17,656 nucleotides of DNA from assembly GCA_026785985.1 (NCBI GenBank), contig JAJAYX010000806.1, positions 1 through 17,656 on the forward strand. The letters are read 5' to 3'. The position numbers and the translations under genes are program-made. The notes under the pieces are model-generated. The model searched no databases, was not told the DNA's origin, and saw nothing but the letters and a program-made list of their open reading frames with translations. Position 1 is the first letter of the stretch, and each line of letters begins with the position of its first letter. Source of the DNA: Rudanella sp. Its GTDB lineage: Bacteria; Bacteroidota; Bacteroidia; Cytophagales; Spirosomataceae. Positions 823 to 17,656 of this stretch are shown piece after piece.

Positions 823-848
823 GAGGTTCTGATTCGGACAGGTAGCCC

Positions 849-2807: not shown

Positions 2808-2858
2808 ACGGCAAGGGGACTTATTTGCCCCAATTTTAGGGCATTTTTTGAATATTGT

Positions 2859-2866: not shown

Positions 2867-2902
2867 TGACCACTATTTATGGCAAAAAAGGACAATTATA
2901 AG

Positions 2903-2910
2903 CACCTTTG
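2903..2910 (+). promoter_or_regulatory. candidate promoter box of the tyrosine recombinase
   Basis: CACCTTTG matches the TAnnTTTG consensus in five of its six fixed bases (A and TTTG; T replaced by C) and ends 23 bases before the recombinase ATG. The same octamer occurs in two island promoters (11026-11019 and 16953-16960). There is no TGA-N6-TCA site at the island's spacing in front of it, so it is not part of that regulon. Confidence 0.3.
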
Positions 2911-2933
2911 CCCTGAAAAGAACGTATCCGTTT

Positions 2934-4151
2934 ATGGCCCGACATCGCTTGACCCCTGCTCTATCAGACATCCCCGACACGGCGGTCGGCTCAGTTGGCA
3001 CTCGTCCGGTATCCGTTGGCCAATTCATCAACCAGTTTACAGCCTGGTTAACAAAGCCGGGGAATTATCCCCGTTTGGCCCGGCAGTTCGTACTGTATTG
3101 CCTGGAACATGGGCTACCCATCGACCTAGGCAGTCTTCGTATCTACGCTGGCGACAAGGCGGGTAATCAGGTTTCGCCAGTAAAGAAATTTCTGTTTTTT
3201 TACCAGATGCAGGGAATGCCGACCATTGTGCCAGACGCGTCCGCTCACAAGCGGATTTCACCAGCCGCCAACGAACTTATTCTGGGATACCTATCTGAAG
3301 CCACCCACCTGCGGGGCGATAAAACTAAAGAGAATTATACCCAGGCTCTCAACGCTTTTTTCACCTACATCGCCGACGAACAGAACGAGGGCCGGACGGC
3401 TTCGTTTTCAGCCCAGACCATCGGGCAGTACGTCAATGACCTGCGTAGGCGGGGTCTGTCGGCGTTCACGGTTAACTTCTACCTCTCCCCCATTAAGCAA
3501 CTAACCGAGTGGGTAATCAAACACCGGACTCGGTTGGGGTTGACCAATGAGCAGGTTGACGGCCTGCGCGATGTGCAGACTATTCGCGGATTGACCATTG
3601 AGCGGGGGTTTTATAAAGACAGTCTCAACGAGGCCGAACGCGATCAGTTGCTGGCCCACATCGACGACCCCACCGACCGGGCCATCGTTGCCCTTTTAGT
3701 GCTGGAAGGACTGCGGACAGTGGAGGTGATTCGCCTGACGGTCGGCGACGTTGAGTTTGACCGGGAGCAGTTGCAGGTACGGGGCAAAGGCAAAAGCACC
3801 AAAAAAGCGATCAAACTTTTTTCGCCCTGCGCCAACGCGCTACGGCACTACCTACAATCGGGTACGGGCGTATCGCTCGTGGCTCCTCACTCCTACCCGC
3901 TTTTTCCAAATTTGAAAACGGCTCAGATTCGTTATCGGGTCGATAAATACCTCAAGGCTCTTGACCTCAAACGCCCCAAAATGTCGGCGCATAGCTTACG
4001 GCATACCACCGGCCAGATTATGATTGACAAGGGGGTAGAACCCATGTGGGTACAGCGGCATCTCCGCCACGAACTGTTTGAGACAACCCAGTTCTACATC
4101 AAGAAGCAGACCGAGCGGGACTACTTTGTGAAGATGCCGGATCAGGTTTAA
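2934..4151 (+). CDS. tyrosine recombinase (XerC/D-like integrase)
   Basis: The 405-residue protein has a SAM-like core-binding domain (about 107-200; TKENYTQALNAFFTYI, and FTVNFYLSPIKQLTEWVIK) and a C-terminal catalytic domain. The catalytic set is complete: Arg261 in LEGLRTVEV, Lys in GKGKSTKK (284-291), HSLR at 353-356, His379 in HLRHE and the nucleophile Tyr388 in FYIKK. The family cuts and rejoins DNA at specific sites, for multimer resolution or integration. I start at ATG 2934 because the frame upstream overlaps parA on the other strand and does not look like protein. The extra N-terminal residues 1-100 also contain a helical segment like a second core-binding domain. On a replicon with parAB, dimer resolution is the likeliest job. 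No attachment or resolution site could be identified. Confidence 0.85.
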   Translation: MARHRLTPALSDIPDTAVGSVGTRPVSVGQFINQFTAWLTKPGNYPRLARQFVLYCLEHGLPIDLGSLRIYAGDKAGNQVSPVKKFLFFYQMQGMPTIVPDASAHKRISPAANELILGYLSEATHLRGDKTKENYTQALNAFFTYIADEQNEGRTASFSAQTIGQYVNDLRRRGLSAFTVNFYLSPIKQLTEWVIKHRTRLGLTNEQVDGLRDVQTIRGLTIERGFYKDSLNEAERDQLLAHIDDPTDRAIVALLVLEGLRTVEVIRLTVGDVEFDREQLQVRGKGKSTKKAIKLFSPCANALRHYLQSGTGVSLVAPHSYPLFPNLKTAQIRYRVDKYLKALDLKRPKMSAHSLRHTTGQIMIDKGVEPMWVQRHLRHELFETTQFYIKKQTERDYFVKMPDQV

Positions 4152-4273
4152 TTCCCTTAAAACCTGTTTCCAACAGATTGAGGACTTTCGACAAGCCAAA
4201 AAGTACAAACATCGCTTGTCAGACATTGTTCTCATATTTGTATCTATCTCAGCAATGGACAGGAGATTACGCA
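4152..4273. other. spacer between replicon backbone and stress island
   Basis: No convincing gene. A short stem CTGTT/AACAG (4164-4176) lies just after the recombinase stop, too weak to call as a terminator. Codon-like structure and the stress gene content start beyond this point, so this is a plausible boundary of the cargo segment. Confidence 0.4.
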
Positions 4274-4607
4274 TCAACTACCAGAAAACCCTGGCAACCC
4301 ATTGGTACTGGCCAGCGGCTCGCCCGCTTTGGCGATAACCGATATATCGACACTTCCCTTATGATACTCCGCATCAATCGCTGACGAAGGCGCGTCAGCC
4401 GGAGCGGAACCGGCGTTTTGCCCTCGTTGGTCTCCGGCCCACAGGCGTGGACGAGTACTTGCCGGGCGTGGAGTTTTTGGCCAGTTCGTGGGCGTAGTCA
4501 GCCGCCCGAACATTGCCGAACAGGTCAGTTGCGAAGATGATTATTTCTACAGGCGCGGGGATTTGCGGATTCATCCGCTTAGAGTAGTTAAAAGGTGTAC
4601 GCTGCAA
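4274..4607 (-). pseudogene. universal stress protein remnant
   Basis: Directly downstream of the phosphoketolase gene and in the same direction. One frame gives VEIIIFATDLFGNVRAADYA then HELAKNS, which parallels the N-terminus of the UspA proteins in this window (for example MKTIILATDFSPMANQAAMF). After about residue 55 that frame turns into Arg-rich nonsense and stops. A second frame then reads EYHKGSVDISVIAKAGEPLA, which resembles the middle of a Usp domain, and stops at 4274. No second half with a G-x9-GS loop follows. I read it as a frameshifted and truncated usp gene that was once the last gene of the ackA-xfp operon. The match is short, so it may instead be unrelated. Confidence 0.4.
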
Positions 4608-4626
4608 TGGAAGGGGAATCCCTAAC

Positions 4627-7005: not shown

Positions 7006-7011
7006 AATCGG

Positions 7012-7554
7012 TCAGACGTTGATTGGTTGGTTCGCGTTGGAAAGTACATCCCGCGTGTGGCGGGCAATGATTTGTTCTTCGTTCGCAGGAATAACCCGCA
7101 CCGTCACCCGGCTGCCATCGGGTGAGATAACGGGGGCGTTTTCGCCGGTGCCACCCGTGAACACGAGTGTATCCAATTCGTTCAGGACGGCTACCAACGT
7201 GCCAGGTTTTTTGGCGGTGTAGCAAAAAAGCCCGATAGCCTCGGTTGCGTGGGGGTTATGAGGAGCCGCTTCGAGCAATTCCCGCACATCATGGCTCAAT
7301 CCCAACACGCCCCGCAGCCCCGACTCGTTATTCAATAAATGACCAGGGGTCGGCACGTCCATGGGGTTGTTCGTGAGCAGATAAAGCAGTACGCCAGAGT
7401 CGAGATCACCCGTGCGGATACCCATCATCAGGCCAATACGGGTCAGTTTGCCCGACATCCGAATTTCTGCCCCGTCCAAGTCGTATAGCGCGAACTTCAG
7501 GCTCAATGAACCGCTATTGAGTATGAGTAGCTGAAGGGGTGAACCGCTGGTCAT
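7012..7554 (-). pseudogene. ackA: acetate kinase with large in-frame deletions
   Basis: The frame codes for 180 residues, against about 400 in acetate kinase (acetyl phosphate + ADP to acetate + ATP). The N-terminal strand LLILNSGSLSLKFALYD and the GKLTRIG segment are present. The protein then jumps straight to LMMGIRTGDLDSGVLLYL, which in complete enzymes lies near residue 220. About 180 residues are missing, including the acetate-binding and catalytic region with its essential histidines. A second gap follows TGGTGENAPVI, which continues directly with the C-terminal SRVTVRVIPANEEQIIARHT motif. FCYTAKKPGTLVAVL also looks a few residues short. The frame is kept throughout. I expect no kinase activity. 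It still has an activator-type promoter upstream and xfp six bases downstream, so it may survive as the leader gene of that operon. Confidence 0.85.
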
Positions 7555-7597
7555 AAAACAAGGTAAGTTTAACCAACACCGGGGTAAAATGATCCCG

Positions 7598-7640
7598 CAA
7601 AATTGACGTATTGAGCCGTCGCCCGTCCTGACTTCGGTCA
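7598..7640 (-). promoter_or_regulatory. CRP/FNR-type site and promoter box of the ackA'-xfp operon
   Basis: TGACTTCGGTCA lies at 7629-7640 (centre 7634.5), inside the longer palindrome CCTGAC-TTCG-GTCAGG (7627-7642). On the minus strand CAATTTTG ends at 7598, so its G is 36.5 bases from the site centre, the class II spacing seen at five other island promoters. The start codon at 7554 is about 44 bases further. As RNA, CCTGAC-TTCG-GTCAGG could form a tetraloop hairpin, but it would lie upstream of the start of transcription. A weaker TGT-N6-TCA half-match follows at 7651-7662. Confidence 0.7.
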
Positions 7641-7659
7641 GGTGGCAGGCTGTTTGTAA

Positions 7660-8202
7660 TCAGGTGGTTTTAAAAAGACTCGCCCGGCAAGTCGGCATGA
7701 CCGCTTCGCCGATGCCGACCTGTTGGTGATGGCCTCCAGAGGGGCCAGTGGGCTAAAAGAAGCCCTGTTGGGATCAAACGCCGAAGACATCATCCAGCAA
7801 GCCATCCTACCCGTGCTGGTCTTGAAAAATGTCCCTAATCACCTTGACCTCAAAACGGTGGTATTTGCGTCGGACTTCCACGACCATTATGATAACTCGA
7901 TTGATTTTCTGAAAACCCTTCTGGGTGGCTTCAGGCAGCCGGCCGTTCATCTGCTGTTTGTCAACACGCTTAGTCGGTTTGTGCCGACCCATGAGATCAG
8001 GCCGCGTATGGAGGCCTTTACCGCTCGGTATGCGCTGGACAGATGCACGATCAACCATCAGGACGAATTTGATGTGGAGACGGGGGTGCTGGGGTTTGCG
8101 GAGGCAAAGAAGGCGGATTTGATTGTGTTGGGTACGCACGGCCGGGAGGGTCTCAGTCGACTGGCTTGGGTCGGTCGTTGGTGTCATCATCGTAAAGCGT
8201 GA
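7660..8202 (+). pseudogene. universal stress protein, truncated at both ends
   Basis: The frame is open from 7660 (after a TAA) and reads DRFADADLLVMASRGASGLK then EALLGSNAE, the end of the first Usp domain, followed by a second domain (VVFASDFHDHYDNSIDFL to DLIVLGTHGREGLSR). It is closest to the protein at 11175-12002, in which the same motif begins near residue 105; the first hundred or so residues are therefore missing. No ATG precedes the conserved part; the first possible start is a TTG at 7723. At the other end the second ATP-binding loop breaks off after GREGLSR and the frame ends in unrelated AWVGRWCHHRKA inside the 3' end of the convergent gene. I consider it a gene remnant; a TTG-started short protein cannot be excluded. 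Confidence 0.7.
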
Positions 8203-8989
8203 GTAACGGTACGGCTGGCGCAAAGGACTTCGAGCGGGTGTTCCGGCTACTGGTTGATAGCTCGGTGCGGGCGTTACCCGCAGGTATCGTCACCAGCAGG
8301 TCAACCAAATTAGCGGTCAGGAAGGCATCAATACCCTGTTTGGCAGTCGGTGATTGTAACCGGGCAACATTCGGTATAATCGGGAGGAGAAACTGCCGGA
8401 TGTGGGCCTCCTGTTCAACATTAATGACTGCCTTGTTGGGCGTGTCGATGGTCAGCAGCGTGAGCGTGGCTCCTTTGAGGCTCACCAGGTCTTTGACGGG
8501 TTCCAGCAATTTGCTGTTTTTCAGATTGGCAAAATCAGCCGCCAAAACAATTCGCCGAATCAGCCTGGGTTCAGAATTACCCGGCACCACCAGCACGTTG
8601 GCTTTGAGCTGACGAATCAGGTCTATGGCGCTGTTACCAAATAACTCATTGGTCTCGTTCGGCTGAGGGCCAATAACGACAAAGTCATACGCTTCCTCTG
8701 TAATTGCCTGCTCAACGACATTAAGTGGCTTGCCTGGCCGGGACGAGGAACGGTACGTGTGCCAATCGTTGGTAGCCTCGCGGTGCAACTCGGTTATTAT
8801 ATGCTGTAACTGACTGGCATAGTTCATGCGCGTTGTTTGGGCAACGTTAGCCGGACTAATGGCAGGTTCCAGCGAATTGGCACACAACAAATGAAAGTTG
8901 ACGACAGAATCACTGAAGAAAGAGCGGGCAAACGCCAGCGCATTATGGGAAGCCTCCGAAAAATCGGTCAGCAGGAGAATCTTTTTCAT
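8153..8989 (-). CDS. universal stress protein, tandem Usp domains
   Basis: The 278-residue protein has two UspA domains in tandem: MKKILLLTDFSEASHNALAF at the N-terminus and IRRIVLAADFANLKNSKLLE opening the second half near residue 165. The nucleotide loop of domain 1 is degenerate (VIGPQPNETNELFGNSA instead of the usual G-x2-G-x9-G-S/T), and domain 2 has no recognisable loop at all. It therefore probably does not bind ATP in the standard way. Usp proteins are cytoplasmic and linked to survival of starvation, low oxygen and energy stress; their mechanism is mostly unknown. It follows the 121-residue gene at 9074-9439 by 84 bases in the same direction and has no activator site of its own, so it is probably co-transcribed with it. 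Its stop overlaps the convergent usp remnant by about 50 bases. Confidence 0.88.
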   Translation of the reverse strand: MKKILLLTDFSEASHNALAFARSFFSDSVVNFHLLCANSLEPAISPANVAQTTRMNYASQLQHIITELHREATNDWHTYRSSSRPGKPLNVVEQAITEEAYDFVVIGPQPNETNELFGNSAIDLIRQLKANVLVVPGNSEPRLIRRIVLAADFANLKNSKLLEPVKDLVSLKGATLTLLTIDTPNKAVINVEQEAHIRQFLLPIIPNVARLQSPTAKQGIDAFLTANLVDLLVTIPAGNARTELSTSSRNTRSKSFAPAVPLLTLYDDDTNDRPKPVD

Positions 8990-9073
8990 ACTTTGTTGGC
9001 TGATTCAATCAGAGTAGTCATGTTTGTATGTTTACCCGTAAGTGGCCCATCTATCGTAGTGGTATGGAACCGG

Positions 9074-9439
9074 CTATTGGCAAAGCACTTTATCAGGTAC
9101 GACTATGCCAACTCCCTGCTGGTTTTGTTGCTCCAGCGTCTGGTGTGGGGTGTCGCCTGTATCGTGCCAGGCACAGCCCGTCCAGCGATCAACGCGAACC
9201 GTCAACCCAAAACACTCTTGTAGGTTAGCATATAATTCGGCGACGTTCATGTCGCCTTCAACCAAAAAACACCACGATGACGGACCGCGCCCCAAGGTTT
9301 CCATGGTTACCTTCTCTCCCAATTTTCCGGGAATGCGTTTGACCCCGGTATGCTCCATCCGCAAACAGGGAAACCGTTCGGCAAAGCACTGCTGGAGGTG
9401 CGTCAGGGTCATCGTTGGGTACACGTCAAAGGTTTTCAT
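9074..9439 (-). CDS. uncharacterised small protein, family member A
   Basis: 121 residues, no signal peptide or membrane segment. I know similar sequences only as hypothetical proteins of Bacteroidota and can name no function. It is a paralogue of the protein at 11989-12372: both begin MKT-F/L-x-VYPxMTLxxL, share FxxxFPxL, then CFLxEGxMxxAxL, FQECxGLxVRxxRWTGxAWHDTxDT and TLEQQNQxG. The conserved acidic, aromatic C-terminal part suggests a folded domain that binds a partner rather than an enzyme with an obvious active site. Both copies neighbour universal stress genes and both have the same TGAC-N4-CTCA activator site, so I infer a role in the same stress response. The ATG at 9439 is the first in frame and aligns with the paralogue's start. 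Confidence 0.8.
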   Translation of the reverse strand: MKTFDVYPTMTLTHLQQCFAERFPCLRMEHTGVKRIPGKLGEKVTMETLGRGPSSWCFLVEGDMNVAELYANLQECFGLTVRVDRWTGCAWHDTGDTPHQTLEQQNQQGVGIVVPDKVLCQ

Positions 9440-9509
9440 AAAACAGTGGGGGTTAGAGGATTAGTTCAGATAATTGTCTGGATAACAGCTACTTCGGCTT
9501 CCCGGTGGT

Positions 9510-9552
9510 CAAAACTATCAGTTGCCTGTTTGCGTAACCATGACCTCACTCA
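9510..9552 (-). promoter_or_regulatory. CRP/FNR-type site and promoter box of the 121-residue gene
   Basis: TGACCTCACTCA at 9541-9552 (centre 9546.5). On the minus strand TAGTTTTG ends at 9510, a full match to TAnnTTTG, with its G exactly 36.5 bases from the site centre. The ATG at 9439 is 71 bases beyond the box. The site's outer TCA is also the stop codon (TGA on the minus strand) of the 144-residue gene and lies inside one arm of a hairpin (9549-9592). Confidence 0.65.
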
Positions 9553-9592
9553 ATCAAGGGTATGACGTTGAGCAGGATGACCCTTGATTGAG
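9549..9592. repeat. hairpin at the end of the 144-residue gene
   Basis: CTCAATCAAGGGT (9549-9561) and ACCCTTGATTGAG (9580-9592) are perfect 13-base arms around an 18-base loop. The arms contain the last codons and stop of the minus-strand gene ending at 9550. There is no T-run on either strand after the stem, so if it ends transcription it does so without the classic tail. It partly overlaps the activator site of the next gene. Confidence 0.6.
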
Positions 9593-9984
9593 CAGGCCAA
9601 CAAACTGAATTGGGTAGCTTCCTGCTGATCCAGTAACTCTTGTTTGGTTTCAAACAATGTTTTCTGGGCGGAAAACAACGGTACGTTCACGCTTATTCTG
9701 GGCGACCCGTCATGCTCACCGAGCGGTTTCAGATCATACACCGCACTGTCTATCAGCAATTCATGAATCTCCTTCCTTTGCCGGATAGCCGTGGTATCCG
9801 TCAGACTGCTGCTGTTCAGGATAATCTGCATAATTCGTCCCTGGAAATAAGGCTGTGGGGTATCATCTCCGCAAGGTTGAGCAACCCAGACCGGGTCACC
9901 AACCAAAAAAGGTATATGGAGGAGGTTCAGAGAAAGGTTCATCGGCTTGTGAATTGACTGGTTAAATACGGTTGGCAATTGCAC
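9550..9984 (-). CDS. hypothetical protein downstream of a usp gene
   Basis: 144 residues; I do not recognise the family. ATG 9984 lies 26 bases after the stop of the usp gene at 10011-10829, in the same direction, so the two are probably one transcript. A second in-frame ATG at 9942 (MNLSLNLLHIPFLVGDPVWV) may be the real start, because the segment before it is short and untypical. Visible features are a short GDPVWVA strand near residue 30, GRIMQIIL near 50, a charged helix RQRKEIHELLIDSAVYDL around 70-87, and a Gln/Glu-rich helix TLFETKQELLDQQEA near 110-125. There is no signal peptide or membrane segment. The alternating strand/helix pattern looks like a small folded cytoplasmic protein. 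The stop codon sits inside a 13-base-arm hairpin. Confidence 0.6.
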   Translation of the reverse strand: MQLPTVFNQSIHKPMNLSLNLLHIPFLVGDPVWVAQPCGDDTPQPYFQGRIMQIILNSSSLTDTTAIRQRKEIHELLIDSAVYDLKPLGEHDGSPRISVNVPLFSAQKTLFETKQELLDQQEATQFSLLACSIKGHPAQRHTLD

Positions 9985-10010
9985 TCATTTGGAAACCCGG
10001 CCCGTCGTCG

Positions 10011-10829
10011 TCAGACAACTGCCAGCAGGGGAATATCAGTCAGGCGGGCCATGCGCTGGGTTTCGCCTTCAGAAAATAGCTTCCAGAACCAGTTCCGCAT
10101 TTGGGGCAGCATCATAATCAGATTCGCTTTGCTATCGTGAGCAAAGTTGAGCAAGGTGTCATGAATTTCGCCCTCGCCAGCGTTAATGGTGAACGTATGG
10201 GGTTGCTGAATCAGCAGTTGTCGAATCTGCTTGGCCTGCTCGTGGGTATCCGCGTCATCCATGTTATAACTTACGCACAGCACGTTAATCACACTACCAA
10301 ACGACCGGGAAAAACCCAATGCCCTGCCAAAAGCGATGGTGTCTGGGGGAGCAGCCAGATTAATGCACAACACCACGTTTTTTAGTCCGCCGTAGGTAAC
10401 GCCGGGCGGAATCAGCAGGAGCGGTATCTCCGTCTCAGCAATCAGTTCGCTGGCAACGCTACCCATAATCTGAGCCGTTCGTGGCGTTGAGCCTACGGTG
10501 GACATCATCAGCAGATCAGCCCCTTCGGATTGGCTCACCAGGCGGAGAGTTGCCTTCACCGACCCTTCGTGGGCGATACACCGAATGGGTACGGCCATAC
10601 CCCCTTCGCCGAGGGTGTCGGCCAGCCGTTGCAACGCTTCTTCGCTGTTTGCCCGAACCGTATCTTCCGACCGAAACACATCATCCGTCCGGGCCGGATC
10701 AGTCGCCCATCCCTGGTAAATGTGCAACAAAATCAGGCTCGCTTTTTGGTCATGGGCCAATTGGTTGGCAAACATAGCCGCCTGGTTTGCCATTGGCGAA
10801 AAGTCGGTAGCCAGAATAATCGTTTTCAT
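10011..10829 (-). CDS. universal stress protein, tandem Usp domains
   Basis: 272 residues with two Usp domains. Domain 1 starts MKTIILATDFSPMANQAAMF and has a nucleotide loop in the right place: STVG at 110-113, nine residues, then GS at 123-124. Domain 2 begins at about residue 150 (KNVVLCINLAAPPDTIAF) and its loop region (MLPQMRNWFWKLFSEG) has lost the glycines. Domain 1 may bind ATP; domain 2 probably not. The start codon overlaps the stop of a 52-residue frame by one base (TGATG), which points to translational coupling. Upstream of that frame lies an activator-type promoter (11019-11061). The 144-residue gene follows 26 bases downstream. Role by family: survival under energy, oxygen or starvation stress. 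Confidence 0.92.
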   Translation of the reverse strand: MKTIILATDFSPMANQAAMFANQLAHDQKASLILLHIYQGWATDPARTDDVFRSEDTVRANSEEALQRLADTLGEGGMAVPIRCIAHEGSVKATLRLVSQSEGADLLMMSTVGSTPRTAQIMGSVASELIAETEIPLLLIPPGVTYGGLKNVVLCINLAAPPDTIAFGRALGFSRSFGSVINVLCVSYNMDDADTHEQAKQIRQLLIQQPHTFTINAGEGEIHDTLLNFAHDSKANLIMMLPQMRNWFWKLFSEGETQRMARLTDIPLLAVV

Positions 10830-10987
10830 CAGTGATACTTTATAGGGTTGAAAAAAGGGAATGAACAGGGGGTGATTGGTATGTACACCCGCTCGCCTGT
10901 TCGGGTGGCCACGAAGGTTAGGTCGCCTTTTCTGAACAACATGGGCAACACAAAAGCGAGCAGATGAGCAATCGGTTCAAAGGTCAT
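10829..10987 (-). CDS. possible 52-residue protein coupled to usp
   Basis: The minus strand from ATG 10987 reads MTFEPIAHLLAFVLPMLFRK then GDLTFVATRTGERVYIPITP and a short Phe/Pro-rich tail, with a TGA whose last base is the first base of the downstream usp ATG (TGATG). I do not know the family. An activator-site promoter ends at 11019, which puts the start codon about 32 bases downstream of the -7 box; this is a normal leader and supports translation. Without it the usp gene would have an unusually long 190-base leader. The first 18 residues form a hydrophobic helix, then a short beta-like segment. It could also be only a coupling leader whose product does not matter. Confidence 0.45.
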   Translation of the reverse strand: MTFEPIAHLLAFVLPMLFRKGDLTFVATRTGERVYIPITPCSFPFFNPIKYH

Positions 10988-11018
10988 GGTCGTAGGTAAA
11001 GGAGGTGAAACAAGTCAA

Positions 11019-11061
11019 CAAAGGTGGCCGACCGAGCCATACCAGACCATGACGGTGGTCA
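11019..11061 (-). promoter_or_regulatory. CRP/FNR-type site and promoter box of the small-ORF/usp operon
   Basis: TGACGGTGGTCA at 11050-11061 is a perfect TGAC-N4-GTCA palindrome (centre 11055.5). On the minus strand CACCTTTG ends at 11019, 36.5 bases from the centre. The same octamer at the same spacing precedes the thioredoxin-fold gene. A second site for the divergent gene lies only 36 bases away (centre 11091.5), so two dimers could sit side by side in this intergenic region. Confidence 0.65.
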
Positions 11062-11085
11062 GTAGGCGGGCTGATTTTGCACACC

Positions 11086-11150
11086 TGATAAAAGTCAGAT
11101 CTTTAACTAAGCGTCCTCATGCGTACAGTCTTGCCAAGTGGGTTGTTTTG
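11086..11150 (+). promoter_or_regulatory. CRP/FNR-type site and promoter box of the usp gene at 11175
   Basis: TGATAAAAGTCA at 11086-11097 (centre 11091.5), within CTGA-N6-TCAG. TTGTTTTG at 11143-11150 is the best -7 box before the gene; its last G is 58.5 bases from the site centre. That is exactly 22 bases, two helical turns, further than the class II promoters, and equals the spacing at the outer-membrane gene. I therefore call it class I-like. The ATG is 25 bases after the box. Confidence 0.6.
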
Positions 11151-11174
11151 TAATGACATTAACTGATCTTGCGC

Positions 11175-12002
11175 ATGAAAACGATACTCGTTCCAACCGA
11201 TCTTAGCCCCATGACCGACAACGCCCTGTCGGTAGCCGTTAGCCTCGCCCGTTTATACCAGGCCGAGGTGCTTTTGCTCCATTCGGTGATGTACCCCGTA
11301 CCCGCCCCGATGTACGCCGAGGCTCCCGGTATGACCCCCGATTATGCCGTATCAACTTACCGGGAAATCGAGGCCGATGCCCGCGAGACCTTAGACCGGA
11401 TAGCGCACAACCCCACTTACGCTGGTGTGACCATCAGACCAACGCTGCTCACCAACGGGCAGGGATTGGTGCATAACGTGACTCAACAACCCGCCGACCT
11501 GATTGTGATGGCTTCGGAGGGGGCATCGGGCTTAGAAGAGATGCTGCTTGGCTCCAACGCCGAAGTAATTGTTCGTCATGCCCACTGCCCGGTGTTGGTG
11601 GTGAAGCACCCCATTGCCCATTTCCGCCCCGAAAACATCGTTTGCGCCGTTGACGTGGACGATCAACTCAAACACATTCACCATTTCCCGTTCCAGATGG
11701 GCGAGCAGGGACTGCACCAGTTTCTGTACGTGCGTACCCCCAGCGACAATCGCGACCCCGAAGGCGTGCGCGACTGGGTGAATGAGTTCACCTACGCCAA
11801 GGGCATCACTGAATTTGATTTCATTGTGCGCCCGGCCAAAACCGTCCCTGAAGGTATCATCCGCTACGCCAACGACGTGCAGGCCGACCTGATCGTGGTG
11901 TTCACTCACGGCCACACGGGTCTGCGGCATATGCTGACCGGCAGCATTGCCGAAGATGTGCTGAACCACGCCGACATACCCGTGCTGATTATGCGGGCGT
12001 GA
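11175..12002 (+). CDS. universal stress protein, tandem Usp domains with two intact loops
   Basis: 275 residues from ATG 11175; the TTG two codons upstream is less likely, because MKTILVPTDLS is the usual Usp start. Both domains keep the ATP-binding pattern: domain 1 has ASEG (113-116), nine residues and GS (126-127) in the VMASEGASGLEEMLLGSNAE motif; domain 2 has FTHG (243-246), nine residues and GS (256-257). This is the best-preserved Usp of the island and the likeliest to bind nucleotide. The middle of domain 2 (HHFPFQMGEQGLHQFLYV) is typical of Bacteroidota tandem Usp proteins. It is transcribed divergently from the small-ORF/usp operon, with its own activator site, and its 3' end overlaps the convergent hypothetical gene by 14 bases. 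Confidence 0.95.
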   Translation: MKTILVPTDLSPMTDNALSVAVSLARLYQAEVLLLHSVMYPVPAPMYAEAPGMTPDYAVSTYREIEADARETLDRIAHNPTYAGVTIRPTLLTNGQGLVHNVTQQPADLIVMASEGASGLEEMLLGSNAEVIVRHAHCPVLVVKHPIAHFRPENIVCAVDVDDQLKHIHHFPFQMGEQGLHQFLYVRTPSDNRDPEGVRDWVNEFTYAKGITEFDFIVRPAKTVPEGIIRYANDVQADLIVVFTHGHTGLRHMLTGSIAEDVLNHADIPVLIMRA

Positions 12003-12372
12003 TTTTATCAAACGAAACAAGAACCACTTTTCCGCTCACTTGTGCCCCTTTCTGGTTCTGTTGTTCGAGTGTCCAGTCGCGGGTGTCGTCGGTGTCGTGC
12101 CAGGCGTAACCTGTCCAGCGTTTAATCCGAACCGCGAGGCCGTAGCACTCCTGAAAGTCGGATTCCAAATCCGCGATGAACATGTTGCCTTCGATCAGAA
12201 AACAGCAATGGGTAATGGCCCCGGCTAACTCGTCCATCGTTTGCCCGTCGAGAGTCTTGTCCGATTTGGAATGGTCGGTAACAAGGTCAAGTTCCAGATG
12301 TGGAAACGTTTTGGTGAAGTGGTGCCGGAGCTGATTCAGCGTCATTTCGGGATAAACTTCAAGGGTTTTCAT
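11989..12372 (-). CDS. uncharacterised small protein, family member B
   Basis: 127 residues from ATG 12372. An earlier in-frame ATG at 12444 would add 24 residues that do not resemble the paralogue and would lie beyond the promoter box, so I reject it. It is a paralogue of the protein at 9074-9439: MKTLEVYPEMTLNQLRHHFT, CCFLIEGNMFIADLESDFQE, CYGLAVRIKRWTGYAWHDTD, TLEQQNQKG. Spacing and order of motifs are conserved, with differences mainly in the loop after the FP motif. Two members with the same type of promoter beside different usp genes suggest duplication of a usp-plus-partner unit. No catalytic motif, membrane segment or signal is seen. Its stop lies inside the 3' end of the convergent usp gene. 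Confidence 0.8.
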   Translation of the reverse strand: MKTLEVYPEMTLNQLRHHFTKTFPHLELDLVTDHSKSDKTLDGQTMDELAGAITHCCFLIEGNMFIADLESDFQECYGLAVRIKRWTGYAWHDTDDTRDWTLEQQNQKGAQVSGKVVLVSFDKITPA

Positions 12373-12415
12373 GCTCAGGTTATCGTTGACGAGCCTACAT
12401 CTGGCTTGTGTACCC

Positions 12416-12458
12416 CAAAATAGCTGCCTTTCCAGACACCACACCCTGACTTGACTCA
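12416..12458 (-). promoter_or_regulatory. CRP/FNR-type site and promoter box of small protein B
   Basis: TGACTTGACTCA at 12447-12458 (centre 12452.5), in CCTGA-N6-TCAG context. On the minus strand CTATTTTG ends at 12416, 36.5 bases from the centre. The second half-site CTCA, rather than GTCA, is shared with the site of paralogue A. The ATG at 12372 is 44 bases beyond the box, the same as at ackA'. Confidence 0.65.
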
Positions 12459-12607
12459 GTGTCCGGATTAATTTTAATCAGGCATACAGGAAACAAAGTT
12501 TAACTGGACACCCGAACGCAACGGCAAACCACCCGAATTTGCCACGAAGTGGCCAGAATGAGCCAATGGCTCCCGTTGATGACTCCGTGGCGGAAAGCGT
12601 TGGCTGC

Positions 12608-13260
12608 TTAGAACCCAATGGTGTGTTCAAGCAATTTTTCCTCGGCCTGACCAACGGCAACCAGGCCCCGCAAAAACACGTCGGGGTTGAACGACAGGCT
12701 ATTGATACCTTCTTTCACCAGAAATTCGGCAAAGGCCGGGTTGTCGCTGGGGCCTTGCCCGCAGATGCCCACCGGCGTGCCGGTGTGATGCGCCGACAGC
12801 AAGAGCATGGCAATCAGGTCGCGCACAGCCGGGTCGTTTTCGTTGAACAGACCCTGTACTGTCGAGGAGTCGCGGTCAACGCCGAGGGTGAGTTGGGTGA
12901 GGTCGTTGGAGCCGATGGAAAACCCGTCGAACAGCCGACCAAAGTCCTGTGCGCGGATGATGTTACTCGGTATTTCGGCCATCACATACACTTCAAGCCC
13001 GTTTTCGTGTTGCCGCAGCCCGTTTTGTGCCATTTGGTTCAGCACCACGTTTTCGCCCAGCCCCCAACTGCCCGTGATGAGCATGAGGTTATTGTGGCCC
13101 GAATCGGGATCAATGGTGAAACACACGCCCGAACTGGCCGGGTCAGAGCGCACCATCCGCTGTACTCCCACCGATAGGGCTACTTTCAGGTGATCGAAGC
13201 CGTTGTCATTGCGGTATTTGATGGCCCGGTCGGTAAATAAGGAAGCATAACAGGCGCGGC
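12608..13260 (-). pseudogene. ppsA: phosphoenolpyruvate synthase remnant (5' truncation and internal deletion)
   Basis: PEP synthase (pyruvate + ATP to PEP + AMP + phosphate) has about 790-870 residues; about 215 remain. The remnant enters at ACYASLFTDRAIKYRNDNGF, which in full proteins is well inside the ATP-grasp domain, and continues as VGVQRMVRSDPASSGVCFTI to GLGENVVL. It then jumps in frame to a C-terminal part reading HENGLEVYVMAEIPSN, DGFSIGSNDLTQLTLGVDRD and GICGQGPSD. More than 400 residues are missing, including the phosphohistidine domain. The frame upstream of 13260 is open only to a TAA at 13283-13285 and has no ATG; the first possible start is a GTG at 13171. I see no way for it to be active as a synthase. 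Confidence 0.85.
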
Positions 13261-13295
13261 AGGCCCACAGAGCTGAGGGCCGTTAGGGATTCGGC

Positions 13296-13307
13296 TGAGT
13301 TTGGTCA
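13296..13307. promoter_or_regulatory. orphan CRP/FNR-type site
   Basis: TGAGTTTGGTCA, in CTGA-N6-TCAGG context (centre 13301.5). It lies about 40 bases upstream of the first homologous codon of the PEP synthase remnant, but no TTTG box exists at 36.5 or 58.5 bases on that strand. The simplest reading is that it drove the intact ppsA gene and that the deletion removed the promoter box together with the start of the gene. The outer TCA is also the present stop codon (TGA) of the outer-membrane gene. Confidence 0.5.
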
Positions 13308-13994
13308 GGCTGGTGGGTGCTGTTTCTTACTGCTTTCGAAAGCCACCCCCGCCAACCCCCAGCGTGATGTAGAACCCGTGCGGAGCGTAGCGAGTGGGAG
13401 ATAGATGGGGGTGGGGCTGTCGCCGTGCCACTCTGCCGAGGCCGTTGTTCGCCGATACCCGGCCCGAACGCTCAACATTGGTCCCGCCAGTAGCATCGGA
13501 TCAGCAGCCGGTTTGGCAACAAGCCAGTCGAAAGTGAGGCCGATATCAGTGGAGAAACCATCCAGCGAGGTTGTCGTCACCGCACCATTAGCCTTTGTCG
13601 CGTTGATATTGAACGCGTTGATACCGGGGCCAAGACTGGGATACAATTTGGCCCGCTTCGACTGCCAGGCCACCCAACCGACCCAGATGTGGGCGTTCGA
13701 TGCCGACGATTCGATCCGTGGCTGACTACCAGCGGCTGATCCCGGCTTATTGACCAGGGCCGACACGTTTAGGCCCACCAACCAGCGATTGACCCGCACA
13801 TACGTTTCCGCCCCAAACAGCGCGTATTGATCGTTACCCGGTACTACAGTCTGACTTTGCTGTTGCACCATCCTGGCCGAGCCAGGCAATACAATCTGTC
13901 CACCATACAGAAAACCGGCTCCACCCCGAATGGGCTGCGCCCATGTGATGAATGAATACAGGAGCAGAATGAGTAAAAGAGAGAGAGTTTGCAT
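13305..13994 (-). CDS. outer-membrane-type protein with signal peptide; probable 3' frameshift
   Basis: 229 residues. Residues 1-19 form a typical signal peptide (MQTLSLLLILLLYSFITWA, cut before Gln20), so it is exported. The rest alternates short amphipathic strands with Gly/Ser turns (YALFGAETYVRVNRWLVGLN, HIWVGWVAW, TDIGLTFDWLVA), as in small Bacteroidota beta-barrel proteins; I cannot assign a named family. In the present frame the end reads TLRTGSTSRWGLAGVAF and stays unstructured. In the -1 frame the same DNA (about 13324-13390) reads RYAPHGFYITLGVGGGGF then RKQ and a stop, which looks like a genuine last beta strand ending in an aromatic residue. A one-base indel near 13385-13410, close to a C-rich stretch, is therefore likely. 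It has its own activator-type promoter upstream. Confidence 0.7.
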   Translation of the reverse strand: MQTLSLLLILLLYSFITWAQPIRGGAGFLYGGQIVLPGSARMVQQQSQTVVPGNDQYALFGAETYVRVNRWLVGLNVSALVNKPGSAAGSQPRIESSASNAHIWVGWVAWQSKRAKLYPSLGPGINAFNINATKANGAVTTTSLDGFSTDIGLTFDWLVAKPAADPMLLAGPMLSVRAGYRRTTASAEWHGDSPTPIYLPLATLRTGSTSRWGLAGVAFESSKKQHPPA

Positions 13995-13997
13995 AAG

Positions 13998-14016
13998 CCA
14001 GAAAGCGGTTTTCTGG
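13998..14016 (-). repeat. small hairpin in the leader of the outer-membrane gene
   Basis: CCAGAAA and TTTCTGG form perfect seven-base arms around five bases. It lies 4-22 bases before the ATG at 13994, just downstream of the promoter box, so it would sit in the mRNA leader over the ribosome-binding region and could affect translation or stability. Confidence 0.4.
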
Positions 14017-14018
14017 CA

Positions 14019-14083
14019 TAAAAGTAGCCCACCCGTCTGCCGGAGACGATGAGCAGGCTTAGGCCCGCAGGTGACTTTAGTCA
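14019..14083 (-). promoter_or_regulatory. CRP/FNR-type site and promoter box of the outer-membrane gene
   Basis: TGACTTTAGTCA at 14072-14083 (centre 14077.5), a perfect TGAC-N4-GTCA. On the minus strand TACTTTTA (14026-14019) is the best -7 box; its last base is 58.5 bases from the centre, the same class I-like spacing as at the usp gene at 11175. The first 17 bases from 14072 match the ackA' site region at 7629 in all but two positions (TGACTTnnGTCAGGTGG). Confidence 0.6.
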
Positions 14084-14097
14084 GGTGGGGATACTAT

Positions 14098-15174
14098 TCA
14101 CCAGTTGGCCCGGCGGAGCTTGTCAGGCTGCACCACCCGGATACAACCCGTTGGCATTTGTTCGATCAGTCCATTCTGTTTGAACTCGCTCAGGATACGA
14201 ATCAGCGATTCCGTAGCCGTGCCGATCATGGCCGCCAGATTGTCGCGCGAGAGTTGAATCACGCCATCGGGCTGTTGGTCGTGCAACCGAAGCAGCGTGT
14301 CGGCCACTCGTCGGCGGAGCGAACTGTAGGCCATGCCCAACAACTGGGTTTCGCGCTCGGCGACGCGGCCCGCCAACAATTTGATAAACTGACCGCTTAC
14401 CGTCGGGTTAGCCAGCAGCAACTGCCGAAAGTCAACGTCGGGAATATAAACCAGTTCCGAATCGTCCAGCGTCACGGCGGAGTCGGGGTATTCGCCCCCT
14501 TCCAGCAGGGCGAAGTAGCCAAAAAAGTCCCCTTCCTGGTAGATACCCGTGATAAACTCCTTCCCATCGGCATTACTTCGAACGGTTTTGACTTTCCCCG
14601 ATTTTAGAAAATAAAGCCGGGTGGGTTCATCTCCTTCCGAATACACGTACTGCTTTTTCCGCACGGCATGAGTCTTCCGGTCTGCCGACAGGTTTTGTAG
14701 ATTCCCCATCTGCCGGACATCGGTCAAAAACTGGTTTAGACCGTCCTGTTGTAGATCGTATTCCGGTTTCAGGTTGGCCGGTCGGAGTGCCGCGTCGCCG
14801 ACGTTTCGGAAGCGGTTCAAGCGCCCTTCGATGGCACTGAGCAGTTCCGATTCCTCGAACGGTTTGGTGAGGTAATCGTCGGCCCCTAATTCCATACCCT
14901 TGCGAAAGTCGTTGCGTTCGATTTTGGCAGTTAGAAAAATGAAGGGAATCCCCGATAGCTGCGGGTTTTTATTGAAAATGTGCAGTACCCCGTAGCCGTC
15001 CAGCACCGGCATCATAATGTCGCAAATGACCAGATCAGGTTTATGGGCCAATGCTTTTTCGACCCCGATTTTACCGTTTTCTGCCGTGTGGACGGTGTAG
15101 CCGGTCAGTTCGAGAATCTCGGCGGTGTTTTCGCGGATGGCCTCATTATCTTCAATCAGCAGAATGGTTTTCAT
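14098..15174 (-). CDS. response regulator fused to CRP/FNR-type DNA-binding module
   Basis: 358 residues in three parts. A receiver domain (1-120) has the acidic pair Glu8-Asp9, phospho-acceptor Asp52 (VICDIMMPVLDG), Thr82 and Lys104. A cyclic-nucleotide-binding fold (about 165-275) contains VYSEGDEPTRLYFLKSGKVK and EGDFFGYFALLEGGEYPDSA. A Crp-type winged helix (about 280-348) has recognition helix GTATESLIRILSEF. Glu322 and Arg326 occupy the positions of CRP Glu181/Arg185 and FNR Glu209/Arg213, which read the GA of a TGA half-site. There are only two cysteines, so no FNR-type iron-sulphur cluster. It should be switched by phosphorylation and activate sigma-dependent promoters. The ATG lies inside the kinase gene (23-base overlap), so the pair is co-expressed. 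I infer that it binds the TGAC-N4-GTCA sites of this island. Confidence 0.93.
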   Translation of the reverse strand: MKTILLIEDNEAIRENTAEILELTGYTVHTAENGKIGVEKALAHKPDLVICDIMMPVLDGYGVLHIFNKNPQLSGIPFIFLTAKIERNDFRKGMELGADDYLTKPFEESELLSAIEGRLNRFRNVGDAALRPANLKPEYDLQQDGLNQFLTDVRQMGNLQNLSADRKTHAVRKKQYVYSEGDEPTRLYFLKSGKVKTVRSNADGKEFITGIYQEGDFFGYFALLEGGEYPDSAVTLDDSELVYIPDVDFRQLLLANPTVSGQFIKLLAGRVAERETQLLGMAYSSLRRRVADTLLRLHDQQPDGVIQLSRDNLAAMIGTATESLIRILSEFKQNGLIEQMPTGCIRVVQPDKLRRANW

Positions 15175-16768
15175 AGGGAAGCGTTAAGGTAACTGTGGTG
15201 CCTTCGTTCAATTCACTCCTCAAGTTTACCTGCCCCCCCATCAACTCCACGTAGCGGCCCACAATGTGCAGACCAAGCCCCGTACCCGGTACATTGACGC
15301 TGTTGGTGGCCCGAAAAAATCGCTCGAACAAGTGCGCTTGATCGGCCTGGGAAATGCCCACGCCCTGATCCGTAACGATGAGCGTGAGTTTATTTTCTAC
15401 GCACGTTCCGCACACGGTTACAACCGATCCCGGCCCCGAATATTTCAGGGCGTTAGACAGCAGATTGACCAGAATTTTGCGCAACAGCGACGGGTCGAGC
15501 CAAATCAGGTCAGTAGCCAACAGGTCAATAGTCACCCGTTGGTTAGGTTTTAGCATTGCCTGTATGTCGGTTATGGTCTCGGCCACCAGTTCGGCCACAT
15601 TGACCTTGGCGGGGTGGGTATCAATCTTACCCTCTTCGAGTCTGCCCACCGATAAAAACTCCTCCAGAATATCGTTCAGATGGTTCACCGATGAACGGAT
15701 ACGGCTCAGGTGCTTGTCGCATTTGTCAGGCTGATTGAGGCCGATGTACTTCTCGATCAGGGTAGCCGAGGTCTGCAACACCGTCAGTGGGGTGCGAAAC
15801 TCGTGGGAAGCCATCGACACAAACCGCGATTTCAACTCGCCCAGCCGTTGCTCGGCGGCTAATGCTTTGGTCAGTTCATCTTTCGACTGTTTCAACTGAT
15901 CGAGGGTGTTCATCAGGGCATTGGTGCGGTCGGCTACTTTCTGCTCCAGGTCGGCGTTGAGCCGCTGAATATCGTCGCGGTGGGCCAGCAGTTGCCGTTC
16001 GGCGGCTTTCTTCACGGTGGTGTCAATGATGTAGGCCACTGCGTACAATTCGTCTTCTAACCGAAAATGACTCAGGCTGATCTCAACGGGGAACACCGAC
16101 CCGTCTTTTCGCCGGGCGTGCAGATCGCGGTTGCGGCCCATTTCCCGCACCTGCGGATTCTGGTTGAAGGATTCCCGGAGTTTCTTGTGGTAATGGCTCA
16201 CGGTCATCGGCACTAAGTCCTCGACGGTCAAGGCAATTAACCCACCGGCTTCGTAGCCGAATAACTCCGTCGCCAAGTGGTTGGCCGACATCACCTGTCC
16301 CTGCTGATTACAGACCACAATGCCGATGGCGGCATACGAGAAAATGGCTTCGTACCGTCGGACGCTGTGATCCAGGTCGCGCTCGGTTTGGTGGAGCCGC
16401 CCCCGGTCGATCAGCCGGACGAGGGCATAGGGTTTGCTGTCGGCGGTAAAAGTACTGAAAATGACCTGTCCCCAGAATGTCTGACCGTCCTGCCGCCCGA
16501 TCTGAGTAGTTTCCTCGTGCTGCCCGGCCTGAATAATGCGGGCAATCAGGCTGGTTCGGTGTTCATCGACCAGTGGCTCGGCCCGCACCGAGCGCGACCG
16601 CACAGGGTCGGTCAACAGGGCCTGTTCTGAATCGAAACCCAGCAACCGCACTCCGGCCTGGTTGACGCGCACAAATTGCTCATGGGTCAGGTCGTAGATA
16701 CCGATAAAGTCGTCGCTCTTCTCGAAAAGCAAGTCGGTCAGAGCATTCGAATAAAGGTCGTTGAGCAT
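15152..16768 (-). CDS. PAS-domain histidine kinase, soluble
   Basis: 538 residues from ATG 16768; the open frame continues upstream, but those codons overlap the promoter box and look non-coding. Two PAS domains (about 10-120 and 132-255; the second is followed by a PAC-like YAVAYIIDTTVKKAAERQL) lead into a coiled-coil linker (255-310). HisKA follows with phospho-acceptor His322 in FVSMASHEFRTPL. The ATPase domain has an N box KILVNLLSNALKYS (431-444), DQGVGI (467-472) and GTGLGLHIVGRYVE (495-508). It has no membrane segment or signal peptide, so it senses something inside the cell; PAS domains of this type often respond to redox, oxygen or metabolites, which cannot be read from sequence. It is the obvious partner of the overlapping REC-CRP regulator. 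Confidence 0.93.
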   Translation of the reverse strand: MLNDLYSNALTDLLFEKSDDFIGIYDLTHEQFVRVNQAGVRLLGFDSEQALLTDPVRSRSVRAEPLVDEHRTSLIARIIQAGQHEETTQIGRQDGQTFWGQVIFSTFTADSKPYALVRLIDRGRLHQTERDLDHSVRRYEAIFSYAAIGIVVCNQQGQVMSANHLATELFGYEAGGLIALTVEDLVPMTVSHYHKKLRESFNQNPQVREMGRNRDLHARRKDGSVFPVEISLSHFRLEDELYAVAYIIDTTVKKAAERQLLAHRDDIQRLNADLEQKVADRTNALMNTLDQLKQSKDELTKALAAEQRLGELKSRFVSMASHEFRTPLTVLQTSATLIEKYIGLNQPDKCDKHLSRIRSSVNHLNDILEEFLSVGRLEEGKIDTHPAKVNVAELVAETITDIQAMLKPNQRVTIDLLATDLIWLDPSLLRKILVNLLSNALKYSGPGSVVTVCGTCVENKLTLIVTDQGVGISQADQAHLFERFFRATNSVNVPGTGLGLHIVGRYVELMGGQVNLRSELNEGTTVTLTLPYENHSAD

Positions 16769-16789
16769 ACAGTAGTGAACCGGCCTGAA

Positions 16790-16797
16790 CAAATGTA
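16790..16797 (-). promoter_or_regulatory. candidate promoter box of the kinase-regulator operon
   Basis: The minus strand reads TACATTTG, an exact TAnnTTTG match, 21 bases before the ATG at 16768. No TGA-N6-TCA site exists at 36.5 or 58.5 bases upstream, so the regulatory pair itself seems not to be under the control it is proposed to exert. A clear -33 TTTG is not visible. Confidence 0.4.
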
Positions 16798-16904
16798 AGT
16801 CGGCGTTACGGGCTAAGTTACTGTAAATCTTATGGAACGGGCGAACGGCCCGGCAAATACCGAATTGTCGGGCCGCCCCGCCCCGGACGGTCCTGGGGCA
16901 ATAA

Positions 16905-16920
16905 TCAGGTGTCCACCTGA
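16905..16920. promoter_or_regulatory. inverted repeat next to the thioredoxin-fold gene's activator site
   Basis: TCAGGTG and CACCTGA are perfect arms around TC. The right arm shares its TGA with the activator site at 16918-16929, giving three half-sites (TCAGGTG, CACCTGA, ATCAGG) in 26 bases between two divergent genes. It may be a second binding site with the half-sites in inverted order, or an overlapping operator for another protein. Confidence 0.4.
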
Positions 16921-16960
16921 CGAGCATCAGGTTGGTTGGCCGATAGCCGGGCCACCTTTG
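16918..16960 (+). promoter_or_regulatory. CRP/FNR-type site and promoter box of the thioredoxin-fold gene
   Basis: TGACGAGCATCA at 16918-16929 (centre 16923.5), in CCTGA-N6-TCAGG context. CACCTTTG at 16953-16960 ends exactly 36.5 bases from the centre, and the ATG at 16989 follows 29 bases after the box. Confidence 0.65.
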
Positions 16961-16988
16961 CCGTTATTATTTCCCCATCCCCGTGCTT

Positions 16989-17339
16989 ATGAACCCCGAC
17001 GATCCCCACCCGGTATTGCTGACTGCCCGGTCGGCGGTGTTACTGATTTTTTTTATGCCATCGGACTATATCAACCGTCCGCAATGGGTAGTTCTGGCGG
17101 CTTTGGCTGATTCCATTCAGGCTCAGTTAGGCAGTTTAGTCCGAGTGCTTCGTATTGACGAAGAGGGCCACCCTGACGTGGTACAGACGTTTACCATCAC
17201 TCAAACGCCCACGTTTGTCCTGCTCCGGCGCGGGGTCGAACTGTGGCGGCAGCAGGGTTTGTCGGATAAGGCCACGCTGGTGGGCCTGATTCGGGGGTTG
17301 CTCGCTGACGATCCGGTCAAGAATCAGCTATTGACCTGA
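16989..17339 (+). CDS. thioredoxin-fold protein lacking the CxxC motif
   Basis: 116 residues from ATG 16989 (a GTG two codons upstream is an alternative). The layout is that of a thioredoxin fold: a hydrophobic strand AVLLIFFMPSDY where thioredoxin has its active-site loop, a helix with QWVVLAALADSIQAQLG, a strand VRVLRIDEEG, then VVQTFTITQTPTFVLLRRG with the cis-proline TPTF, and a C-terminal helix. The redox-active Cys-x-x-Cys is replaced by Ser-Asp-Tyr-Ile-Asn-Arg, and the protein has no cysteine at all, so it cannot act as a disulphide reductase. A binding or scaffold role is possible. It is followed by a usp gene 62 bases downstream, has the island's activator site in front, and its stop codon TGA is a half-site of the next activator site. 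Confidence 0.8.
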   Translation: MNPDDPHPVLLTARSAVLLIFFMPSDYINRPQWVVLAALADSIQAQLGSLVRVLRIDEEGHPDVVQTFTITQTPTFVLLRRGVELWRQQGLSDKATLVGLIRGLLADDPVKNQLLT

Positions 17340-17379
17340 TGTGCGTCAGGGTTTGCGCGGGAAGACAGCCATTGCTTTG
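17337..17379 (+). promoter_or_regulatory. CRP/FNR-type site and promoter box of the last usp gene
   Basis: TGATGTGCGTCA at 17337-17348 (centre 17342.5), in a CCTGA-N6-TCAGG context. TTGCTTTG at 17372-17379 ends 36.5 bases from the centre. The ATG at 17402 is 23 bases after the box. The first TGA is the stop codon of the thioredoxin-fold gene. Confidence 0.65.
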
Positions 17380-17401
17380 CCCAACTAAAAACCTGTTTAT
17401 T

Positions 17402-17656
17402 ATGAAGACCATTCTGGTGCCGACCGATTTGAGTGAATTAGCCAATAATGCTCTCCACGTGGCCGTTGACATCGCCCGTGATTACAATGCCGAGATCCTG
17501 CTGGTGCATTACCAGCCCTTTTCAATAGCCCGCGCCAACACCGCCGAAGGCTCTTTATCCATGCTCAGTTACCTCGACGAGCAGGAAGACAATGACAAAG
17601 CCGAATTGCAGAAAATCGCCGAAAACCCGGCCTACCACGACGTTCGTATCCGTCCG
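17402..17656 (+). CDS. universal stress protein, N-terminal part (runs off the window)
   Basis: 85 residues are visible and the frame is open to the window edge. MKTILVPTDLSELANNALHV is the standard opening of a Usp domain and is closest, within this window, to the protein at 11175-12002 (MKTILVPTDLSPMTDNALSV); both continue with a strand ending in LLLH or LLVH and a segment ending in ...NPAYHDVRIRP or ...NPTYAGVTIRP. The nucleotide loops lie beyond the edge, so binding cannot be judged. It is probably again a tandem protein of about 275 residues. It has its own activator-type promoter in addition to possible read-through from the thioredoxin-fold gene. Confidence 0.9.
   Translation, partial: MKTILVPTDLSELANNALHVAVDIARDYNAEILLVHYQPFSIARANTAEGSLSMLSYLDEQEDNDKAELQKIAENPAYHDVRIRP

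Follow-up and report, generated by a model that had tools for sequence, protein, structure and literature searches.

A 17,656-nucleotide stretch of DNA from Rudanella sp. (contig JAJAYX010000806.1, positions 1 to 17,656; hereafter the window) contains six promoters in which a TGA-N6-TCA site stands at one fixed distance from a TTTG box. We propose, with a probability of about 75%, that each of the six sites serves as the proximal box of a tandem, FNR-box-like promoter worked by a CRP/FNR activator—most likely a fusion of a receiver with CRP-type domains (RR-CRP) that acts under a PAS histidine kinase—and that the promoters form a low-oxygen regulon. Six kinds of evidence, all read from sequence, bear on this proposal: the geometry of the sites, their tandem arrangement, its recurrence in other genomes, the genes downstream, the gene neighbourhood and the conservation of residues in the proteins concerned.

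An initial annotation of this DNA had listed nine TGA-N6-TCA sites and read them as a regulon with a fixed promoter geometry. All nine coordinates proved correct on recount, and the list was incomplete: the window holds 17 such sites, 13 of them between 7598 and 17379, the additional ones lying at 11006 (intergenic) and at 11779, 14181 and 17108 (within genes). This number compares with 3.94 expected, and none of 200 shuffles reached 17. The six TTTG boxes that had been quoted each lie exactly 36.5 bases from the centre of their site, which places TTTG 27 bases past the site in the direction of the promoter (spacing 27). When all 17 sites were read in both directions, no spacing between 0 and 57 other than 27 gave more than one TTTG, versus six at spacing 27; 1,000 dinucleotide shuffles gave a mean of 0.039 and a maximum of 2 at this spacing, and the best count at any spacing from 0 to 60 was 3, reached in two shuffles. 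The repetition of sites in the window is hereby confirmed. Only six of the nine quoted sites have the geometry, however: those at 11086–11097, 13296–13307 and 14072–14083 have no TTTG at spacing 27 on either strand, and the promoter set is therefore six, not nine. A search of the window against Rfam gave no matches at the gathering score. Across the source genome (an assembly that is 72% complete, in 891 contigs), the geometry of single sites is not enriched among the matches listed. By hand count, spacing 27 accounted for 6 of the 100 matches listed (240 in total over 11 spacings), where an even share would be about nine, and spacing 28 for about 19 of the same 100. Scans for single sites were dropped given this lack of enrichment; it is the tandem form alone that is specific across the genome.

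This tandem form emerged from 80 loci (up to 21 kb each, 1.54 Mb in total; mostly Spirosoma, Larkinella, Fibrella, Runella and Hymenobacter) collected with the RR-CRP protein of the window as the query. In these loci TTTG follows TGA-N6-TCA 118 times at spacing 27, 119 times at 49, 42 times at 50 and 25 times at 71 (median over spacings, 8), the main peaks being separated by steps of 22 bp, and the distances from site to site peak at 22 (73 pairs) and 23 bp (22 pairs; median, 0). All six promoters of the window likewise have a partial second box exactly 22 bp further upstream (5, 5, 5, 5, 4 and 4 of the 6 core bases), with a mean core match of 4.67 of 6 at this offset against 0.33 to 2.67 at 21 other offsets. 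Taken together, the spacing steps, the site distances and the partial boxes of the window lead us to define the unit as two boxes plus a −7 element; the initial annotation had the proximal site and its TTTG right, and the second box is new here. The −7 element of Bacteroidota is TAnnTTTG, and the base three before TTT, which was not part of the search pattern, is A in 95% of 90 distinct tandem promoters. The median distance from the G of TTTG to the start codon is 32 nt (121 of 124 promoters with a frame). TTTA also peaks in the 80 loci (49 at spacing 27 and 41 at spacing 49; median, 6), and the −7 box may therefore allow A as its last base; this reading does not rescue the sites at 11086, 13296 and 14072 of the window.

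Searched as a strict pattern (two boxes plus TTTG, 16 fixed bases) with the reversed pattern as a control, the tandem occurs in 106 of 291 Cytophagales genomes, including five places in the source genome, whereas the reversed pattern gave one match. In a sample of the phylum, 42 of 395 genomes contain it (reversed control, 0); by hand count, these are 39 of the 98 genomes inside the class of the source organism and 3 of the 297 outside it. The six promoters of the window escape the strict pattern because their distal boxes are partial. The suggestion that the regulon is local does not survive these results, as genomes across Cytophagales and in other Bacteroidia carry this code ahead of genes for oxygen limitation; the recurrence in both samples and the similarity of the downstream genes led us to reject a purely local regulon. 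Among the matches listed, 14 promoters counted by eye are divergent, the same two boxes serving both directions, so that the proximal box of either gene is at the same time the distal box of the other. One of these lies in the source genome (contig C21, approximately 2107–2202), about 5.6 kb from a second RR-CRP gene.

As in FNR-type regulons, a class II site stands at a fixed distance from the −7/−10 element. Class II Crp promoters have their site at −41.5, according to PMC5957442, and our sites take the same position on the assumption that transcription begins some 5 nt downstream of TTTG. Their recurrence across numerous genomes and the link to CRP-family genes described below uphold the earlier reading of a CRP/FNR activator at class II distance from the Bacteroidota −7 element, and this reading of the sites is strongly supported by the sequence comparisons. 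Common words aligned by chance, or by codon bias, in a single window would be another way to arrive at the six promoters, given that TGA and TCA are common words and that the single-site geometry is not enriched genome-wide among the matches listed. The shuffles, the reversed-pattern controls and the offset control all run contrary to this explanation, whose likelihood we regard as negligible.

The genes behind the tandem promoters look like an oxygen-limitation regulon of the FNR type. Of 118 promoters in the 80 loci, 4 were dropped for want of a frame of at least 70 amino acids, and the remaining 114 frames include 20 COX1 and 18 FixO matches (fused cbb3 oxidase CcoN/CcoO), 11 CcoI-type ATPases, 5 PAS kinases, 5 D-2-hydroxyacid dehydrogenases (which we read as the D-lactate type), 3 universal stress proteins (Usp), 2 zinc alcohol dehydrogenases, 2 globins and 2 phosphorylase matches that represent the same gene behind two sites; the other frames belong to other families or have no match. 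As the 80 loci had been chosen for their regulator, we also scanned 87 frames taken genome-wide—29 from the Cytophagales scan and 58 from 40 non-Cytophagales regions and 20 regions mostly far from RR-CRP (18 further tandem promoters, some of them the cut far side of divergent pairs, were dropped for lack of a frame). These comprise 13 Usp, 12 P-type ATPases (10 with a CcoI-type metal-binding domain), 4 HemN, 4 CcoN and 2 ATP-cone proteins, with single cases that include a nitrous oxide reductase propeller and PPDK.

The initial annotation had placed the regulator in the CRP/FNR family, which holds, and had left the receiver-CRP protein and the kinase of the same window unlinked to the sites. 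RR-CRP (14098..15174, minus strand) is proposed as the activator on the basis of its Pfam domains (Response_reg, cNMP_binding and HTH_Crp_2), its conservation and the proximity of gene and motif. By sequence it is a member of the CRP/FNR superfamily, having both a cNMP_binding domain (PF00027, E = 2e-22) and a Crp-type helix-turn-helix (HTH; PF13545, E = 4.3e-16), each above the curated cut-off. Among 80 aligned RR-CRP proteins the receiver aspartate D52 is kept in 79, as are E322 and R326 of the recognition helix (79 each, with one gap). The TGA core is read by E181 and R185 in CRP and by E209 and R213 in FNR, and we take E322 and R326, aligned by eye, to be their counterparts. The cAMP ligands of CRP are E72 and R82; the positions aligned with them by eye are Y220 (78 of 80) and D231 (D in 74 and E in 6 of 80), and a classical cAMP-CRP was rejected because RR-CRP lacks these ligands. 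RR-CRP likewise lacks the set of cysteines that binds the cluster in FNR-type proteins: 64 of the 80 aligned proteins have a single cysteine (C51, in the receiver), the protein of the window having two. Given the missing ligands and the many single-cysteine members, neither cAMP nor an FNR-type cluster is a likely ligand. A FixJ-type assignment also fails: the receiver and D52 are there, but the output domain is HTH_Crp_2 and not an HTH of the LuxR type. As it lacks both the FNR cysteines and the CRP ligands, we class RR-CRP, from its sequence, as neither FNR nor CRP but as a response regulator whose output belongs to the CRP/FNR superfamily. One record titled Flavobacterium sp. SUN052 contains an RR-CRP that is 83% identical to that of the window, as close as those of Fibrisoma and Fibrella; its organism name may be wrong.

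The PAS histidine kinase (15152..16927, minus strand), proposed as an oxygen sensor from its Pfam and PDB matches and from residues H247 and R267, is encoded by a gene that overlaps that of RR-CRP, and 73 kinase-like frames adjoin RR-CRP genes among 79 homologues. Its open reading frame begins inside the 16918 box, and relatives suggest that the true start is at 16768. Against the PDB, the PAS domain matched 12 sequences at E = 0.001 or better, of which one is another kinase and 11 carry the labels DosP, heme PAS sensor, yddU or FixL. H247 (kept in 72 of 74) aligns with the heme-binding histidine of DosP, and R267 (65 of 74) with the arginine on the oxygen side. As judged from these alignments, the domain has the proximal histidine and distal arginine of the FixL/DosP heme-PAS sensors, and the kinase is probably an oxygen sensor.

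The link between RR-CRP and the motif comes from gene proximity and from co-occurrence. Of the 163 motifs listed (150 from Cytophagales and 13 from the phylum sample), 129 come from 48 genomes in which an RR-CRP gene is also listed, and 53 of these 129 are within 25 kb of that gene, where 1.55 would be expected. The motif is present in 30 of 33 genomes with RR-CRP versus 4 of 11 without it in family f12 (threshold, E = 1e-80), in 9 of 10 versus 12 of 31 in family f19 (1e-80) and in 14 of 19 versus 2 of 27 in family f1 (1e-130). In the source genome itself, sites surround the RR-CRP genes both in the window and in a second RR-CRP island (contig C21; 81% identity).

Several observations count against the assignment to RR-CRP and its kinase. 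There is some homology among the promoters of the 80 loci, which keeps their counts from being independent. The cut-off of 1e-130 in f1 was chosen after relatives near 1e-100 had been seen to lack the motif, and the f1 genera with such relatives have almost no motif; in genus g2, which has RR-CRP at about 1e-145, the exact tandem is absent from all three genomes. FixL-like residues may also occur in PAS domains that hold no heme. In addition, 12 of the 31 f19 genomes without RR-CRP still have the motif, and RR-CRP is therefore not the only protein able to use it. Genus g5, with RR-CRP relatives near E = 1e-100 (about 50% identity) and no exact tandem, may read a different site.

Stand-alone CRP/FNR proteins seem, from gene neighbourhood and sequence, to use the same code in other genomes. 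In family f19, the boxes of seven motif loci adjoin a gene for a stand-alone CRP/FNR protein that carries CxxC as well as other cysteines, and genes judged by eye to be Usp-like or CcoI-like are its neighbours; RR-CRP is missing at 1e-80 from six of the genomes concerned and is present in one (G064). We take the cysteine spacing of these proteins to differ from that of Escherichia coli FNR. Their recognition helix (GTATETVIRLLSEFK in 5 of the 7) is nearly identical to that of RR-CRP in the window (GTATESLIRILSEFK), and of 81 motifs from 32 genomes, 22 have a listed stand-alone gene no more than 5 kb away, against 0.2 expected. The FNR-like promoters of the source organism could likewise be worked by a stand-alone chromosomal CRP/FNR protein, with RR-CRP a mere neighbour, target or co-regulator. 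We consider this unlikely, as in f1 and f12 the motif tracks RR-CRP and clusters round it, and as the sites of the window and of the contig C21 island surround RR-CRP genes. Of the 150 Cytophagales motifs listed, 67 are near an RR-CRP or a stand-alone gene listed and the other 83 are near neither. The two-box unit is very regular and its CRP-family reader is a prediction, which would also suit a regulator of another kind—one large protein or tetramer on a 34-bp repeat, or a repressor—with CRP-family genes nearby by coincidence. This is highly improbable in view of the TGA-N6-TCA core, which is the one read by CRP/FNR proteins, of the two unrelated arrangements in which CRP-family genes stand beside the motif, and of downstream genes that are typical FNR targets.

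For the favoured reading, activation by RR-CRP under its PAS kinase, we outline a mechanism in which the pairing of protein and DNA, the heme, the oxygen signal, the activation and the transcription start are inferred. A dimer of the CRP/FNR family would bind the proximal box at about −41.5 and a second dimer would sit near −63.5, further upstream by two helical turns (22 bp, in some cases 23 bp), the two together bringing RNA polymerase to the −7 element nAnnTTTG. The activator in the source organism would most likely be the receiver-CRP fusion, phosphorylated by the overlapping kinase, the PAS domain of which is similar to those of FixL and DosP, both of them heme oxygen sensors. Under oxygen shortage, the activator would switch on the cbb3 oxidase and its copper supply, Usp, and fermentative or energy-saving enzymes (acetate kinase/phosphoketolase and D-2-hydroxyacid dehydrogenase). 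The rhizobial FixL–FixJ–FixK cascade would in effect be folded into a kinase and one protein that resembles FixJ and FixK joined. More tentatively, and with somewhat less than even odds, the tandem might be a Bacteroidota-wide code, in which two abutting dimers 22 bp apart on nearly one face of the DNA activate as one unit. Such a code would be read by interchangeable regulators (cysteine-bearing FNR-like proteins in some lineages, the FixJ–FixK-like fusion under a FixL-like heme kinase in others), the phosphorylated receivers of neighbouring dimers touching for cooperative binding, so that the sensor chemistry is swapped and the DNA code stays fixed.

Within the window, four tandem promoters are on the minus strand. 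That of the shortened acetate kinase gene ackA and the phosphoketolase gene xfp (7598..7662) consists of a −7 box at 7598–7605, a proximal box at 7629–7640 and a distal box at 7651–7662 (5 of 6 core bases). The next two, with the same distal match, precede a 121-amino-acid protein (9510..9574; −7 box 9510–9517, proximal 9541–9552, distal 9563–9574) and, 190 nt from the start codon, a Usp gene (11019..11083; −7 box 11019–11026, proximal 11050–11061, distal 11072–11083). The fourth, also 5 of 6, is that of a second small protein (12416..12480; −7 box 12416–12423, proximal 12447–12458, distal 12469–12480). On the plus strand, both with 4 of 6, are the promoters of a thioredoxin-like gene (16896..16960; distal 16896–16907, proximal 16918–16929, −7 box 16953–16960) and of a Usp gene at 17402 (17315..17379; distal 17315–17326, proximal 17337–17348, −7 box 17372–17379).

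Downstream of the first promoter, ackA (7012..7554, minus strand; 180 amino acids, its Pfam match covering profile positions 233–338 of 392) and xfp (4627..7005, minus strand) probably form one operon, as xfp lies only 6 bp behind ackA. The 121-amino-acid protein (9074..9439, minus strand) has no assigned function, and a search of 5.77 billion proteins for relatives found one besides itself at E = 0.001; the second small protein (11989..12372, minus strand; 127 amino acids) is its paralogue by BLASTP clustering, each standing behind its own tandem promoter. One Usp gene lies at 10011..10829 (minus strand), and the product of the other (17402..17656, plus strand), cut by the window end, clusters with Usp proteins. 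The thioredoxin-like protein (16983..17339, plus strand) matches at E = 0.00012, just under the Pfam cut-off, and 14 small proteins similar to it form a family behind such promoters in the 80 loci. This set (shortened ackA and xfp, two Usp, the thioredoxin-like protein and two small paralogues) would be the energy and stress arm of the regulon. The acetate kinase gene (7012–7554), one Usp gene (7723–8202) and a PEP synthase-like gene (12608–13171) are shortened pieces only; the island seems to be in decay, with its promoters still in place. At 886–4151, genes for a ParA-like ATPase, for an adjacent protein that has no Pfam match (ParB-like on inspection) and for a tyrosine recombinase point to a plasmid or another kind of mobile element.

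Each of the closest known systems shares part of this arrangement. FNR/ANR-type regulons have class II promoters with a TGA-N6-TCA core and targets such as cbb3 oxidase, HemN and Usp; the promoters described here agree with them in the core, in a proximal site at class II distance and in these targets, and differ in the recurrent pair of boxes 22 bp apart, in the Bacteroidota −7 element and in an RR-CRP that lacks FNR-type cysteines. In the DosRS dormancy regulon of mycobacteria a heme kinase and a response regulator control Usp genes at low oxygen, a likeness that extends to the heme kinase predicted here, whereas DosR is a LuxR-type and not a CRP-type regulator. Work on rhizobia describes signalling from hFixL through FxkR to FixK and fixNOQP (PMC7888657) and provides the FixL–FixJ–FixK cascade as a comparison system (PMC9104804 and PMC4999443). 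A FixL-like PAS kinase, a response regulator, a CRP/FNR-family effector and cbb3 oxidase among the targets are common to both; here receiver and CRP-type effector are in one protein, and heme and oxygen control are predicted. For E. coli CRP, PMC5957442 gives site positions of −61.5 (class I), −41.5 (class II) and −93.5 (class III). Promoters of E. coli with several CRP sites resemble ours in having more than one CRP-family dimer (predicted here) upstream of one promoter, and differ in that our distal box, at about −63.5, immediately adjoins its proximal partner and has been conserved in many genera, and that RR-CRP lacks the cAMP ligands.

Among the matches listed in the open-licence literature of PubMed Central, we found nothing on the tandem code or the receiver-CRP fusion and no oxygen-responsive regulons of this kind in Bacteroidota; within that literature, the parts not found described are the 22-bp tandem as a recurrent form and the fused regulator. 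With a signature of 16 bases that has almost no background in the controls, such regulons would become predictable directly from genomes. If the proposal is true, the receiver-CRP fusion and its FixL-like kinase would amount to a FixLJ–FixK cascade in shortened form, and the code shared with stand-alone regulators would show how, in nature, one regulator can replace another while the DNA sites stay as they are.

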